Shown one piece after another: positions 2,990 to 45,548 of a DNA stretch of 45,548 nt. Under the pieces are notes generated by a model. It was not told the DNA's origin and searched no databases. It saw only the letters and a program-made list of their open reading frames with translations. Positions within the stretch are counted from its first letter, which is position 1; every line of letters begins with the position of its first letter. The position numbers and the translations under genes are program-made. This DNA is from a virus. The stretch is from IMG/VR virus record IMGVR_UViG_3300033148_001204, positions 1 through 45,548 of that record; one strand, 5' to 3'.

Positions 2990-3022
2990 TCTAAAATTAA
3001 TTATTAAATTTAATTTTAGATT
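2988..3022 (+). terminator. 13-bp stem-loop after the primase gene
   Basis: AATCTAAAATTAA at 2988-3000 pairs perfectly with 3010-3022 across a 9-nt loop. It starts inside the primase stop codon and runs directly into the next promoter. The stem is A/T only and lacks a clean U run, so termination may be partial. Confidence 0.5.
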
Positions 3023-3041
3023 AAGAATATTTAGATATAAT
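3021..3041 (+). promoter_or_regulatory. Promoter for the early accessory block
   Basis: TATAAT at 3036-3041 has TTAAGA at 3021-3026, 15 bases upstream. The whole element is identical to the one before the gene at 10828. The expected start is near 3048, giving a leader of about 28 nt. Confidence 0.75.
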
Positions 3042-10661: not shown

Positions 10662-10693
10662 TTAAGATTAGATTAAGAATATTTAGATATAAT
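10662..10693 (+). promoter_or_regulatory. Promoter for the SSB/polymerase operon
   Basis: TATAAT at 10688-10693; TTAAGA at 10673-10678 and 10662-10667, exactly 15 and 26 bases upstream. This is the best match to the shared plan. Expected start near 10700, leaving a leader of about 128 nt. Confidence 0.8.
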
Positions 10694-10827: not shown

Positions 10828-11373
10828 ATGACTAAAGCTAAATTACACGAAGAAGTATTAAGTCTTTGTAATACACACAACGCAAGCAAAAAGCTTACTG
10901 AAGCATTAAGTGAGTTAACTAAGCCAAAAGTTGGTGGTTCAAGTGATGTTAATGACTATACTGCGTTTAATGAAGATGGGTCAGTAGCTGCAATCTTTTG
11001 TACATATCACAAACAATGGGAACCGGTTTCTGCTGTTAGAACTGTTGATGCTGTTGAAGCAGATGAAGAAGCTGGTACTGAAGCGGTTGAAGCTTATGAA
11101 GAAGATTTCAATCTTTTCGTTGAAGATACAAAAAGCAAAAATGGTTTCAGACGTTACTGTGATGCTGGTGATAAGCAGTGGAAAGAAGCTGCTAAGTTAT
11201 TTAAAACATCAAAAGAAGCAATCGTTACAGATATTCTTGATGGTGAAATGTCAGGTGCTGATGGTAAATCTGCTCTTGAGAAACTTCAAGAAGCTCGTGA
11301 TATACATACACCTCGTGTTGATGGTCTTGGTGAAGACAATAAACCAGGTGATGTTGGTACTGAAGAAGCATAA
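10828..11373 (+). CDS. Small acidic protein, paralogue of the gene at 44337
   Basis: 181 residues. Start set at 10828 because AAGGAG precedes it and because the N-terminus then aligns with the protein at 44337: MTK.. L...(V/A)L.L.N.H.A.KKL.EA...L. Both also place C58, H61 and EP at 65-66 identically. A later C111 in RRYCDAG may complete a zinc site. The C-terminal half is acidic and helical. Strong promoter, long leader and a following UUCG hairpin suggest an abundant protein. Function unknown; the C..H....EP pattern is reminiscent of a zinc finger associated with HNH proteins, but no HNH core is visible. Confidence 0.75.
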   Translation: MTKAKLHEEVLSLCNTHNASKKLTEALSELTKPKVGGSSDVNDYTAFNEDGSVAAIFCTYHKQWEPVSAVRTVDAVEADEEAGTEAVEAYEEDFNLFVEDTKSKNGFRRYCDAGDKQWKEAAKLFKTSKEAIVTDILDGEMSGADGKSALEKLQEARDIHTPRVDGLGEDNKPGDVGTEEA

Positions 11374-14322: not shown

Positions 14323-15033
14323 ATGTTAACACGTAAAGAAACAATAGCTAAGGGTAAACTATTAGTAGAGATTGATATTAATACAGTATGTAACCTTAGT
14401 TGTAATAACTGTAATAGGTTTTCACAGTTTAAATCTACATATAAGGTTATGAATCTTGAGCTTATCAAAGAATTTGTTAAAGATAATAAACATTACGGTA
14501 AAGATATGACAGTAGCAATATTAGGAGGTGAGCCTACACTACACCCTGATATAGAGTTAATTATTATAGCTCTAGCTAAGTATTTTAATGTTATACTAAC
14601 TACTAATGGCTTGACTGAGTATAAGCCTCTTATACCAGGTATAGTAATTGAAAACTCAGCTAAAGAGGTTAATGAAGAGCCTGAGTTTGCTTTAACTATG
14701 AATGCTCCAATAGATGATAATAGTTATATAGGTGTAGACTATTCTATGGGTTGTAGACAATCAGGTATTTGTGGTAATGGCTTTAATGAGAATGGCTATT
14801 ATCCTTGTTCAGTAGCTATGAATATAGATAGAATGATGATGACTCAAGGTATGTTAGGCAATGGATGTGTATCTTTATCTATGAGTAATAGGCATAGAAG
14901 TGCTACATTAGATAATCTATGTAGATATTGTGGTACTTTTCAGAACAGACATTATGGTGTATTAAAAGCAACTAATATAGGAACAGAACAGGTTTATTCT
15001 AAATCTTGGAAATTTATGGCGATGGTAAAATGA
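14323..15033 (+). CDS. Radical SAM enzyme with SPASM-like C-terminal cysteines
   Basis: 236 residues. CNLSCNNC gives the canonical CX3CX2C (C23, C27, C30) that binds the SAM-cleaving 4Fe-4S cluster; GGEP at 68-71 binds the SAM amino group. C144, C150, C162, C182, C200 and C203 suggest one auxiliary iron-sulfur cluster, as in SPASM/Twitch proteins. It begins directly after the polymerase stop and ends in ATGA with the exonuclease, so it belongs to the replication operon. Substrate unknown. No precursor-peptide gene is obvious next to it, which favours a nucleotide or DNA-linked substrate over a peptide (inference). Confidence 0.88.
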   Translation: MLTRKETIAKGKLLVEIDINTVCNLSCNNCNRFSQFKSTYKVMNLELIKEFVKDNKHYGKDMTVAILGGEPTLHPDIELIIIALAKYFNVILTTNGLTEYKPLIPGIVIENSAKEVNEEPEFALTMNAPIDDNSYIGVDYSMGCRQSGICGNGFNENGYYPCSVAMNIDRMMMTQGMLGNGCVSLSMSNRHRSATLDNLCRYCGTFQNRHYGVLKATNIGTEQVYSKSWKFMAMVK

Positions 15034-21958: not shown

Positions 21959-22184
21959 AAGTATAAAGCATATATGTGATAGATGTGGGGAATCAATAGA
22001 GTCCCCTACAGGTGTAGATGAAGCAATATGGTATCCACAAGAGTGGCAACACATTAGGTTAGGTCAGACAGGAGCTGAACTAGATTTGTGCACAGATTGT
22101 AATGTAGAACTATTGACGTTTATGACAGCTAAAGGCGCAATCAATATGGGAGACGCTATCTTTAATGAAAGAAGGCTTATCTAA
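21945..22184 (+). CDS. Zinc-ribbon protein, last gene of the rightward operon
   Basis: 79 residues with CDRC (C11, C14) and CTDC (C49, C52), a simple zinc ribbon. Its stop TAA at 22182-22184 overlaps the stop of the converging gene on the other strand and lies in the apex of a hairpin. Function unknown. Confidence 0.65.
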   Translation: MATLKSIKHICDRCGESIESPTGVDEAIWYPQEWQHIRLGQTGAELDLCTDCNVELLTFMTAKGAINMGDAIFNERRLI

Positions 22185-41051: not shown

Positions 41052-41276
41052 ATGAATACATCGTTTAGTATAGACCCTAATGATAAGTTAGGGCTTGAAT
41101 GTTTAGAGATTGTTAAGAATGAGGCGAGAACACATAGCCTTAGTTTTTCAAATGTAGTACGTAATCTATTAGTTGCAGAAGCAAAACCTGAATTAGTTAA
41201 TAATAAGCCGAAACAAATTAAGCCAATTACTACTCAGATTAAAGATAAACCTAAGCCAACAGTTAAAAAGGTTTAA
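41052..41276 (+). CDS. Arc-like ribbon-helix-helix protein
   Basis: 74 residues. TSFSID as the DNA-contacting strand, helix A to about residue 29 and helix B LSFSNVVRNLLVAEA fit the RHH fold. A Lys/Pro-rich tail follows (KPKQIKPITTQIKDKPKP). Placed at a divergent promoter with a TTAAG palindrome, it is the best candidate regulator of the late/packaging switch. Function otherwise unproven. Confidence 0.65.
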   Translation: MNTSFSIDPNDKLGLECLEIVKNEARTHSLSFSNVVRNLLVAEAKPELVNNKPKQIKPITTQIKDKPKPTVKKV

Positions 41277-41873: not shown

Positions 41874-42090
41874 TAAAAACTTTATAGGAAAAGAATATTT
41901 TTGTTCTGTATGTAAGACACAATATACAATGACTGATGATATGCTTGATGAAGTAGAACTAACTCATAAATGTGGAGAGCACTTAAATGTAATAACTGCT
42001 CAGTGTCCTCATTGCGAGAGTATGTCTATACCTGAGGGTATGAATCAGATAACTTGGCTAATGCCAGGAGAGGAAGATATAGATGGCTAA
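41866..42090 (+). CDS. Zinc-ribbon protein between terminase genes
   Basis: 74 residues. CSVC (C13, C16), HKC (H34, C36) and CPHC (C47, C50) give two or three zinc sites. AAGGAG precedes the ATG. Overlaps the large terminase start by 8 bases. May be a packaging accessory; no family recognised. Confidence 0.6.
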   Translation: MANKNFIGKEYFCSVCKTQYTMTDDMLDEVELTHKCGEHLNVITAQCPHCESMSIPEGMNQITWLMPGEEDIDG

Positions 42091-43756
42091 GTGTGAATGG
42101 TATTTAAATATAACACCTGACGAGTATGATGAACTATATCCCGACTTGTTAGATGTTAAATGGTTGTTTGAAAATAACCCTGATAGTGATGAAGATATGA
42201 TAGCTAATTATCTTCCTGTTAAATTATGGCGTATGAACAATCTTTATTGGATTGAAGATAAAGATGGTAATCGCGTTATAATGAACATGAATAGAGGACA
42301 ACATAAAGTTAAGGCTGCTCAAAGACGCCACCCTCGTATCATCATTCTTAAATCTAGACAGCAAGGTATCTCAACATACTGGTTGCTAGACTACAAAGAC
42401 GATGCAATATTCACTGATGCTCTCAAAGTTGGTATGCTTGCTCAAGGTCTTGAAGAAGCCTCTACATTACTTACTAGAGTTAAAACTGCTTGGGAACTAT
42501 TAGACCCCGGCATCAAAGAGTTCTTAGGTCTAGCTGTAACCAAAGATAATAGTAAAGAGTTTAGTTTCAACAATGACTCAACTATATTCATTCGTTCTTC
42601 GTTCCGTTCTACTACGCTACAACGTCTTCACGTTTCTGAGCTTGGAAAGATTAGTAACAAGGACCCACAGAAAGCGAGAGAACTTGTTGCAGGTACAATG
42701 CAAGCCATCAAGGCTGGTAACCCGGTTGTACTTGAGTCAACTGCTGAAGGTCGTAAGAACCTCTTTCACAAAATGTGGTATGAGGCTGTAAACTTCGTAG
42801 GTGATAGAGCACTTAAAGACTTCTACCCTGTATTCCTATCATGGGTAGATGACCCCGATTGTACTGCCAAGATACCTCAGAGATTAACCATCGATGATGA
42901 TGCATATATAGCTAAGGTTGAGCATGACCTAGACATGATACTATCTGATGAACAGAAGTGGTGGGTACATACACAACGTAAAGAGAGTGGTGATGACTTC
43001 GACCAAGAGTACCCTTACAACCCTGAGGCTGCATTTGCTGCTGTTAGAGATGGGGCTTACTTCGCGCGTATATGGAAAGACTCTGGGCGTATGTGGTATC
43101 CACACAATGGTCAAGGTACTGAATCTAAAAACCTTATTAAAGGTCATGAAGATGAACTATCGCTATATGATGGTGCACTTGATACATTCGTCTCTGTTGA
43201 CCTCGGTATGAACGACATGATGGTCTTAATAGTATGGCAAGAATATGTTAATGCTAGCGGCTTACTAGAGATTAGAATCGTTAGATGCTACAAGAACAGT
43301 GGTGAAGCACTACGTCACTACTATGAATGGCTAGTATCTCTAAACATCCGTATAACTAACGTGTATCTACCACATGATGCGAAGGTTAGAGAGTTGGGTA
43401 GTGCGAAGTCGCGTTATGGTATCCTCTACGATTTAGGCATGCGAAACATGACTGTACTAAAGAAAACCAATAACAAGTCTAACGATATAGAGCTTGCTCG
43501 TCGTATGCTACCACATGTTATTATAGATATGACACCTGGTACTGGTTGTGACTACTTAGACGATATGATGCATAACTACTCCAAGCAGTGGGATGAAAAA
43601 GGTGGTATGTGGAAAGACAAACCTTTACATGATGAATGGTCTAACCCCGCTGATGCATTCTTATACTTAGTTATGGGTCGTTATGCAACTGGTGACAGTG
43701 TTGGGAAGGTGAAGAAACGCGGTAGCCGTCGAAAACGTGGAGGGTTGGCCTTATAA
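42083..43756 (+). CDS. Terminase large subunit
   Basis: 557 residues. ATPase: Walker A-like KSRQQGIST (K90-T98), Walker B HVSEL (E186), coupling motif LESTAEG at 218-224. RNase H-like nuclease: D373 (SVDLG), D432 (LPHDAK) and D517/D524 (DEWSNPADA). Pumps and cuts DNA at the portal. From about 42300 to the end the gene uses more C-ending codons than its first 200 bases and its neighbours. Confidence 0.93.
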   Translation: MAKCEWYLNITPDEYDELYPDLLDVKWLFENNPDSDEDMIANYLPVKLWRMNNLYWIEDKDGNRVIMNMNRGQHKVKAAQRRHPRIIILKSRQQGISTYWLLDYKDDAIFTDALKVGMLAQGLEEASTLLTRVKTAWELLDPGIKEFLGLAVTKDNSKEFSFNNDSTIFIRSSFRSTTLQRLHVSELGKISNKDPQKARELVAGTMQAIKAGNPVVLESTAEGRKNLFHKMWYEAVNFVGDRALKDFYPVFLSWVDDPDCTAKIPQRLTIDDDAYIAKVEHDLDMILSDEQKWWVHTQRKESGDDFDQEYPYNPEAAFAAVRDGAYFARIWKDSGRMWYPHNGQGTESKNLIKGHEDELSLYDGALDTFVSVDLGMNDMMVLIVWQEYVNASGLLEIRIVRCYKNSGEALRHYYEWLVSLNIRITNVYLPHDAKVRELGSAKSRYGILYDLGMRNMTVLKKTNNKSNDIELARRMLPHVIIDMTPGTGCDYLDDMMHNYSKQWDEKGGMWKDKPLHDEWSNPADAFLYLVMGRYATGDSVGKVKKRGSRRKRGGLAL

Positions 43757-43759
43757 CTG

Positions 43760-43823
43760 TTATTAAATTTAATTTAAGTATTGTATTTTATACTTGTAGA
43801 ATATTTTATTAAATTTAATTTAA
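43760..43823. repeat. 18-base direct repeat flanking a terminator-like hairpin
   Basis: TTATTAAATTTAATTTAA occurs at 43760-43777 and 43806-43823. Between them AAGTAT/ATACTT (43776-43781/43790-43795) can form a weak hairpin after the terminase gene. The motif AAATTTAATTTAA also recurs near the ends of the window and near several promoters. Confidence 0.6.
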
Positions 43824-43952
43824 TATGATAGATTATTATAAATTAAAAATTTTAGGCTCCCATGTCAATCTCAATAGAATATGAATCGATGGCCCGACCC
43901 TTATGTATATAACAGCTGGCACTTTTTATAAATTTCATAATTCATCTCATAT

Positions 43953-43984
43953 TTAAGATTATATTAAGAATATTTCGATATAAT
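43953..43984 (+). promoter_or_regulatory. Control-region promoter 1
   Basis: TATAAT at 43979-43984 with TTAAGA at 43964-43969 and 43953-43958, 15 and 26 bases upstream. It is followed immediately by CGCGCGCCCG, a GC-rich discriminator unique in this window. Confidence 0.7.
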
Positions 43985-43990
43985 CGCGCG

Positions 43991-44165
43991 CCCGTTCATT
44001 ATATAAGAGATAATATCTATCTCTATATGATATGATTAGAATCAATATAAGAGGTTATAGAGATAGATAGATAATAAGATAGATATTATATCAAATAAGA
44101 AGATATCGGTGTTTATAGCCAAATTATAGAATTCACCATTTATTTAAATTAAATTTAAGATTAAC
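43991..44165 (+). ncRNA. Candidate non-coding RNA
   Basis: Starts about 7 bases after the -10 at 43979. ATCTATCTCTATA (44015-44027) pairs with TATAGAGATAGAT (44056-44068), and ATAAT (44010-44014) can extend it with ATTAT (44085-44089). A further GGTG/CACC hairpin lies at 44109-44138. No open frame with a ribosome site. It ends near the next promoter. Confidence 0.4.
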
Positions 44166-44175
44166 TGTATATAAT
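44144..44175 (+). promoter_or_regulatory. Control-region promoter 2
   Basis: TATAAT at 44170-44175 with TTAAGA at 44155-44160 (15 bases upstream) and TTAAAT at 44144 (26 bases upstream). Confidence 0.6.
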
Positions 44176-44219
44176 AATACATACCAAACGATTAAGGGCG
44201 AATATGATTAGATAATATC

Positions 44220-44263
44220 TAAATTGAATCATTCAATTTAATTTAAGAATATTTAGATAGAAT
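44220..44263 (+). promoter_or_regulatory. Control-region promoter 3 with preceding hairpin
   Basis: TAGAAT at 44258-44263 with TTAAGA at 44243-44248, 15 bases upstream. TAAATTGAA/TTCAATTTA (44220-44228/44232-44240) forms a hairpin just before it that may end transcription from promoters 1 and 2. The leader starts with GATTAA/TTAATC at 44270-44285. Confidence 0.6.
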
Positions 44264-44336
44264 TAGATAGATTAAATCTTTAATCAAAATCTTATGAAGT
44301 GAGATGATACACTCAAAAAACATGAAGGGTTCTATT

Positions 44337-44819
44337 ATGACTAAAACACAATTAAAAACAGAGGCACTAAATCTGTTAAATGAGCATAAAGCAAATAAAA
44401 AACTTGTTGAGGCAATTACTACATTAATGGCTTCTTATACTGCATCAAAATCAAATAAAGTGATTAGAGAAAAAATGATAACTATAGATGATGAACAATT
44501 TGTATGGTGTAATCGCCATGAAGTTTATGAGCCAATTATAAATTTCTCAAAAGGTGAAAAATCTGATTGTTGTATTCTTGCTCACACTGTTTGGAATGAC
44601 CTTGGAAAACAAGTTACTAAACTTAGTGATGATTTAACTACAAAAGCAATAGAGGGTGAAGATGTACAAGAAATTGCGGCTGAACTTAAATCTAAAAAAG
44701 AATTACGTGGCGGTAAATATAACTTCATAGATGATAAAGTGAAATTCCCAGAAATCGAAAACTATATCTATGATGATAAGTTATTCCACCAAGATACTGC
44801 AACTCCAGTAGAATCGTAA
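44337..44819 (+). CDS. Small protein, paralogue of the gene at 10828
   Basis: 160 residues. Start at 44337 chosen because the TCTATTATGACTAAA start region is the same as at 10828 and the proteins then align: MTK..L..EAL.L.N.H.A.KKL.EA...L, with C58, H61 and EP65-66 in identical positions. C78/C79 may finish a zinc site. The C-terminal half is charged and helical. Three stacked promoters before it and a perfect palindromic terminator after it suggest strong, regulated expression. Function unknown. Confidence 0.75.
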   Translation: MTKTQLKTEALNLLNEHKANKKLVEAITTLMASYTASKSNKVIREKMITIDDEQFVWCNRHEVYEPIINFSKGEKSDCCILAHTVWNDLGKQVTKLSDDLTTKAIEGEDVQEIAAELKSKKELRGGKYNFIDDKVKFPEIENYIYDDKLFHQDTATPVES

Positions 44820-44825
44820 ATAGTT

Positions 44826-44853
44826 ACTATCATTAAGATATCTTAATGATAGT
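44826..44853 (+). terminator. Perfect 28-base palindrome after the paralogue gene
   Basis: ACTATCATTAAG pairs with CTTAATGATAGT around ATAT, 7 bases after the stop; a short T stretch (GTTT) follows. The downstream genes at 44887 and 45069 would be read by leak-through. Confidence 0.65.
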
Positions 44854-45317: not shown

Positions 45318-45548
45318 GAATTGTGATGAATTGGCAATCGTCTAGTGGGTTATAGAATTAAATAAGATTTAATCGAAAAAAATTCTAGAATTCTATAATT
45401 ATAGAATCCCTATCTTATATATATATTTTATTATAATAATTATATAATAGATTGTATAGAGAAGTTAGGGGTCTATAATTCTATAATTTTTATAATTATG
45501 AGCTTATATAGAATAAAATTTAATTTAATTCTATATAATTCTATAATT
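45318..45548. other. AT-rich non-coding junction with repeated ATTCTATAATT, candidate replication origin (right part)
   Basis: No gene is visible after the stop at 45317. The motif ATTCTATAATT occurs at 45390-45400, 45478-45488 and 45538-45548; the last is the same copy as 35-45 once the ends are joined. Two of the copies sit in a longer shared block in which the motif is followed one base later by TTATAATTAT. Short palindromes of TATAATTATA type overlap them. Iterated motifs in extremely AT-rich DNA next to the primase operon are what a phage origin looks like, but this is inference; an AT-rich control region is the alternative. Confidence 0.45.
45504..45548. repeat. Terminal direct repeat, right copy
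   Basis: Exact copy of bases 1-45. Joining the ends through it gives a continuous non-coding region from 45318 to 227 with no broken gene, which supports a circular map of about 45,503 bases. Confidence 0.9.

Follow-up and report, generated by a model that had tools for sequence, protein, structure and literature searches.

A probable early control region with an alternating pyrimidine-purine tract downstream of the terminase gene in a Kafunavirus-related podophage genome

What is the function of the long non-coding gap that follows the terminase gene in the podophage genome IMGVR_UViG_3300033148_001204? The window, i.e. the whole stretch of 45,548 nucleotides that was analysed, is a complete podophage genome in circular assembly, bases 1-45 being identical to bases 45504-45548. 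The rightward genes begin at 41052, pass the contig junction and end at 22184, and the structural genes run leftward from 40908 to 22342; the gap at 43757-44336 therefore separates the terminase from the beginning of the early block. Very probably it is the control region that starts the early genes of the podophage. A control region with stacked promoters had been proposed in the initial annotation; repeated promoter cassettes lend support to this proposal, as do the shared location of the gap in related genomes and a conserved element at the first promoter (P1).

The gap and the relatives of the phage

The gap is delimited by the following features.

42083-43756, + strand: gene for the terminase large subunit (TerL), used as synteny anchor; PHROG terminase matches, 40-65% identity to relatives
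43757-44336, + strand: putative early control region, non-coding, from TerL to the first early gene; non-coding at the same position in relatives
44325-44329, + strand: predicted ribosome binding site AAGGG, in a context as in relative G005
44337-44819, + strand: first early gene, 160 aa (phrog_10459), orthologue, by its position and start context, of the corresponding gene of G005

The TerL stop codon ends at 43756 and the preferred start of the next gene is the ATG at 44337 (SD AAGGG); in G005 the corresponding start context reads ..GGAGTCTATTATGACTAAA... Since no open reading frame of at least 40 aa starts within 43757-44303 on either strand, the gap is real and non-coding, as had been assumed. 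It had also been described as standing out in a genome of almost continuously overlapping genes; it is not unique there, a second gap of about 410-450 bp extending across the contig junction (45318 to 227). That second stretch (45318-45548 and 46-227) is non-coding, very A/T-rich and carries many inverted repeats (TATAATTCTATAATT units).

By protein sequence, the phage is distantly related to Edwardsiella phage KF-1, Vibrio phage VPMS1, Pseudoalteromonas phage PH1 and Dickeya phage Amaethon, with identities of 40-46% for TerL, 39-43% for the major capsid protein and 39-41% for the portal. Homologues of these three proteins occur in the KF-1/PH1-type (Kafunavirus-related) gene order, and the window shares with Kafunavirus-related podophages the succession TerS-TerL-gap-early genes with a divergent structural block. 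A megablast search of the phage collection gave no match, and hence no genus-level nucleotide similarity to Kafunavirus, and the phage is classified here as lying outside that genus, though distantly related to it. Close relatives were obtained via portal alignment; a TerL scan for close loci and a search of viral contigs for the first early protein returned distant relatives only, or none. In genome contigs the best portal match was to a Sulfurovum MAG (46%).

The gap in the relatives measures about 330-960 bp and comes either directly after TerL or after one or two small genes 3' of it. More distant genomes with a different arrangement and other genes after TerL (G010, G011, G013-G015, G022-G024, G044, G062 and G064) were left out of the gap comparison. 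Within the gaps, A/T palindromes in repeated copies usually come first, followed by a GC box, by variable DNA that often contains iterons, by promoters and lastly by the first early gene. The first two of these elements correspond to the following positions in the window, none being assigned to a strand.

43761-43777: A/T palindromic repeat, copy 1, TATTAAATTTAATTTAA
43808-43825: A/T palindromic repeat, copy 2
43883-43900: conserved GC box GAATCGATGGCCCGACCC, found as a de novo motif of post-TerL gaps; candidate cos/pac site

The GC box stands as a conserved element by itself and perhaps marks the start of packaging. The box and the palindromes upstream of it would then form a cos/pac site, with TerS binding the palindromes and TerL cutting at or near the box, and virion DNA would begin just 5' of the early promoters, like the left end of T7. 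This explanation of the region is quite possible, if short of probable. The position after the terminase is kept even where extra genes lie between (G016, G017, ctXG1253, G065 and G042), and most gaps have one to six repeated palindromes followed by the box. As a de novo motif in 28 post-TerL gaps the box scored 152, far above the 62-74 of 14 shuffled sets, although plain local GC richness may contribute to that score. It is not followed by a T-run, and a simple terminator is therefore unlikely. At the position of repeat copy 1 the relatives have one to six TTAATAAATTTATTAA-like palindromes, and the match to their consensus reaches significance in roughly half of the genomes, the window not being one of them. 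Contig ends show no clustering at the box; G036 alone stops shortly beyond it, and the other end of that contig is not the matching early side.

Promoter cassettes before the first early gene

Hexamers of the -10 type occur at 43979 (TATAAT), 44170 (TATAAT) and 44258 (TAGAAT), 285 bases from first to last, and belong to the first three features below; the remaining two were found by a genome-wide cassette search.

43964-43984, + strand: promoter 1 (P1) cassette TTAAGAATATTTCGATATAAT, -10 at 43979-43984; one mismatch to the exact copies, a level reached by no shuffle
44154-44175, + strand: possible promoter 2 (P2), TTTAAG-N10-TATAAT; not significant against the 21-bp cassette
44243-44263, + strand: promoter 3 (P3) cassette TTAAGAATATTTAGATAGAAT; one mismatch to the exact copies, leader to the gene about 65-70 nt
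3021-3041, + strand: exact copy of the cassette before gene 3076
10673-10693, + strand: exact copy of the cassette before gene 10783/10828, a paralogue of the first early gene

The 21-bp cassette TTAAGAATATTTAGATATAAT is thus exact at 3021 and 10673 and has one mismatch at 43964 and 44243. Everywhere else in the genome it has at least 4 mismatches, and shuffled genomes gave 0.2 matches at 4 and none below. All four copies precede + strand genes, and the protein encoded at 10828-11373 aligns with the first early protein at 27%; these paralogues share the promoter cassette. P2 has 5 mismatches to the cassette, which is about chance (0.28 per shuffled gap). The three stacked promoters of the initial annotation are therefore retained for P1 and P3, owing to the repeated cassette, but not with the same force for P2. 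A scan of the + strand of the gap with the E. coli-type consensus (TTGACA-N17-TATAAT) recovered no promoter at all, the three included; in this A/T-rich genome the scan was uninformative, giving fewer matches than shuffles, and assignment to E. coli-type sigma-70 promoters was not retained. A weak copy of the cassette (4 mismatches) was seen at 177, before the gene at 228.

Related TTTAAG-N-GATATAAT cassettes are present in three related genomes, and in one of these, L010, they stand in tandem within the same gap. Tandem cassettes of nearly equal length were observed in L010 (G002; 91 × 4), G006 (L139; 89 × 2), L035 (ct1fd225; 94 × 2) and G021 (L149; 89 × 6), where early promoters appear to have been multiplied by tandem duplication. 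The two spacings in the window, 191 and 88, are too few for comparison with these units of 89-94 bp.

RpoD promoters of C. jejuni have TTTAAG at -35 and a -10 extended by TGx (PMC3824568, PMC3656092). The promoters of the window resemble Campylobacterota RpoD promoters in having TATAAT without an E. coli -35 and with TTTAAG-like A/T-rich DNA upstream (PMC3824568, PMC3656092), but differ from those of C. jejuni in that TTTAAG lies just about 10 bp 5' of the -10. The phage-like promoter pattern was found 59 times in 81 Campylobacteria genomes, against 28 for a reversed control, and 3 times in 75 Gammaproteobacteria genomes, against about 20; these pattern counts favour the Campylobacterota class over Gammaproteobacteria. 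The pattern was not enriched in the five genomes of the genus Sulfurovum that were searched, and stricter patterns gave counts too low for this comparison. Neither the Sulfurovum portal match nor the pattern counts prove the host.

Phage early promoter regions are a known kind of element. The T7 early cluster A1/A2/A3 places several host-type promoters within about 300 bp just 5' of the first early gene; these promoters have normal -35 and -10 hexamers and no alternating tract, and T7 encodes its own RNA polymerase. In anatomy the gap fits such a cluster, with putative promoters stacked before the first early gene. It differs by the alternating tract described below, and no phage RNA polymerase was found among the 20 proteins of the window scanned against PHROGs.

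The alternating tract at P1

43985-43998, + strand: tract CGCGCGCCCGTTCA of alternating pyrimidines and purines, adjoining the P1 -10 on its 3' side; 12 of 14 positions in phase

A GC-rich start in otherwise A/T-rich DNA had been noticed here, and it is rare indeed: the run of 10 G or C in 10 bases, CGCGCGCCCG at 43985-43994, was matched in 5 of 2000 gap shuffles. In eight relatives a -10-like TATT, TATA or TAAT, with TGTACA or TTTACT 17 bp upstream, is followed by CG, CA and TG steps. A matrix was built from these eight relatives, with the window excluded, and every position of the window was scored on both strands. The top match in the whole window was 43976-43994, equalled in 0 of 3000 gap shuffles; G005 (0 of 3000) and G065 (0 of 500) also passed. 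Many relatives (G004, G008, G001, G002, G007, G025, G019 and others) showed no element recognisable by this matrix. G006, in which P1 was identified by eye, failed the matrix, being weakly similar, and was excluded from the alignment.

In the alignment of 11 genomes, pyrimidine and purine alternate in 149 of 154 cells of the 14 bp that follow the -10. Substitutions within the tract comprise 38 transitions and 5 transversions, compared with 64 and 118 in its flanks (Fisher p~1e-10, a nominal value because the aligned sequences are related; the difference from their own flanks holds). With the window and G005 removed, the tract has 30 transitions to 1 transversion. In the window, and in 10 of the 11 other genomes with a P1-like element, the run at P1 ranks first among the GC-bearing alternating runs of the gap. 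KF-1, VPMS1, PH1 and Amaethon share the element, with TGTACA or TTTACT 17 bp 5' of TATTCG, whereas P1 of the window is of the TTAAG type with TATAAT. It combines a -10-like hexamer with the alternating tract, has ATTATA in place of TGTACA/TTTACT, and its longest unbroken alternating run is 7; with 12 of 14 positions in phase, and with TATAAT and TTAAG replacing the TGTACA/TTTACT-N17 type, it has changed relative to its relatives.

A blind scan of IMG/VR used two patterns that fixed the upstream half and CGC and left the next 11 bases free; matches arising by chance had on average 5-6 of the 11 in phase. Among the matches listed, at least 14 loci had 11 of 11 in phase, at least 13 of them with a KF-1/PH1-type TerL; the sole other locus listed with such a TerL had 10 of 11, and four listed with only a distant TerL (about 27-29% identity) had 4-6. 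Six or seven of the loci listed are additional genomes, the others being phages already used or near copies. One locus without a TerL match, L257, shares the upstream half and also carries a long alternating tract, CGCGCGTATGCGCGCGTACGCGCGTA; it may represent one more relative or a different use of a tract of this kind.

As judged from these comparisons, the tract is a DNA element that has been retained among relatives with distantly related bacterial hosts, and in it the alternation of base type is conserved above the letters themselves. Such conservation suggests selection on DNA shape or strand opening, or on recognition by a regulator that reads shape. Bacterial promoters do not usually conserve the class of a base and leave the base itself free, and this pattern suggests selection on the form of the DNA. 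The promoters may be compared with those that carry a GC-rich discriminator (rRNA-type), which are sensitive to supercoiling and ppGpp (see also PMC3865300). GC-rich DNA between the -10 and the start is common to both; here, in contrast, a strict pyrimidine-purine alternation is conserved over about 14 bp, past the start.

The tract might instead be an operator read by a dimeric phage repressor or activator, with the alternation a by-product of near-palindromic GC-rich half sites. Several tracts have dyad symmetry (KF-1, GCGTGCGCACGC; G005, CGCG-CA-CGCG), but in VPMS1, Amaethon and the window this symmetry is imperfect or absent and yet the alternation is retained, and we regard an operator as possible but rather unlikely. 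Fur-box-like sites, considered as the target of a shared regulator, were significant in few relatives and not in the window. Sites resembling the classical Fur box GATAATGATAATCATTATC were noted in the post-TerL gap of L162 (G042, three tandem copies), L144 (G007), L032 (ctXG1253) and L148/L149 (G021).

The explanation that we consider probable overall is that of an early control region of a Kafunavirus-related podophage, in which stacked promoters lead into the gene at 44337 and P1 is gated by the alternating tract. From the repeated cassette, the conserved position and the conserved alternation, all read off the sequences themselves, we infer promoter activity, its early timing and the gating. 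Host RNA polymerase would start rightward early transcription at P1 (43979), P3 (44258) and possibly P2 (44170); all transcripts would run into gene 44337, the P1 RNA with a long 5' leader. The approximately 14 bp of alternating steps (C-G, C-A, T-G) after the P1 -10 would cover the discriminator and the transcription start, so that P1 could be gated by the form of its start region, either through supercoiling-dependent opening (possibly a B-Z transition) or through a shape-reading phage regulator, and P3 would give an ungated transcript with a short leader. A more specific proposal, speculative and on balance unlikely, is that the tract is kept for a physical property (Z-prone or very flexible steps), not for its sequence, and gates the first early promoter as a supercoiling sensor, which would distinguish the relaxed, newly entered genome from the circularised, supercoiled one, in phages of gammaproteobacteria and, probably, of Campylobacterota.

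The element is short and present in cultivated phages (KF-1, PH1, VPMS1 and Amaethon) and is therefore directly testable. It also provides a landmark for the early region in a large, mostly uncultivated group of podophages. A literature search, with most subscription journals outside its reach, found no paper describing an alternating P1 element.

Iterated repeats, the stem and a probable P1 leader

The region could also, or instead, be an origin of replication whose initiator sites would be the inverted repeat and the iterated repeats. Tandem iterons do occur in the same gap of G042, G052, G021, PH1 and Amaethon, and near 41 kb, about 3 kb upstream, both gene orientation and skew diverge. An origin is nevertheless improbable: the window has no tandem array, the skew tracks gene direction and the iteron sequences differ between relatives.

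Two potential secondary structures, without strand assignment, lie downstream of P1.

44014-44027 with 44056-44069: perfect 14-bp inverted repeat, specific to the window and absent in relatives
44221-44228 with 44232-44239: 8-bp hairpin before P3, within chance by shuffling

The stem had been given as 13 bp; it is present and above chance (0 of 200 shuffles reach 14), but measures 14 bp. The hairpin before P3 is likewise present, but DNA this rich in A/T would yield it by chance. Absence of the stem from close relatives had been named beforehand as an outcome that would refute a small RNA of about 170 nt from P1, and this is what was observed: in the 110 nt after P1, the longest perfect stem is 5-8 bp in ten relatives with P1, none of which has the stem of the window. 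In the window, the stem region resembles an insertion.

A non-coding RNA of about 170 nt that starts at P1 and is folded around the stem is thus very improbable, despite the cassette at P1, the stem above shuffles and a modest z-score for RNA folding (-2.16, equalled by 3 of 200 shuffles), since the stem is absent in relatives, no + strand terminator was found in the gap and no Rfam family was matched. Furthermore, P1 of several relatives lies too close to the first open reading frame to leave room for a separate RNA and a leader: the distance is 126-154 nt in KF-1, VPMS1, PH1, ctXG1253, G063 and G005, and 312-345 nt in the window. With P1 so close to the first open reading frame in these six relatives, a 5' leader is the simpler reading, and the P1 RNA is more likely an early leader than a small RNA.

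Two further observations were made outside the gap. A radical SAM domain protein with a weak QueE-like match is encoded at 14323-15033, directly 3' of the DNA polymerase and inside the replication block, and a perfect 28-nt palindrome, ACTATCATTAAGAT/ATCTTAATGATAGT, lies at 44826-44853, directly 3' of the first early gene.
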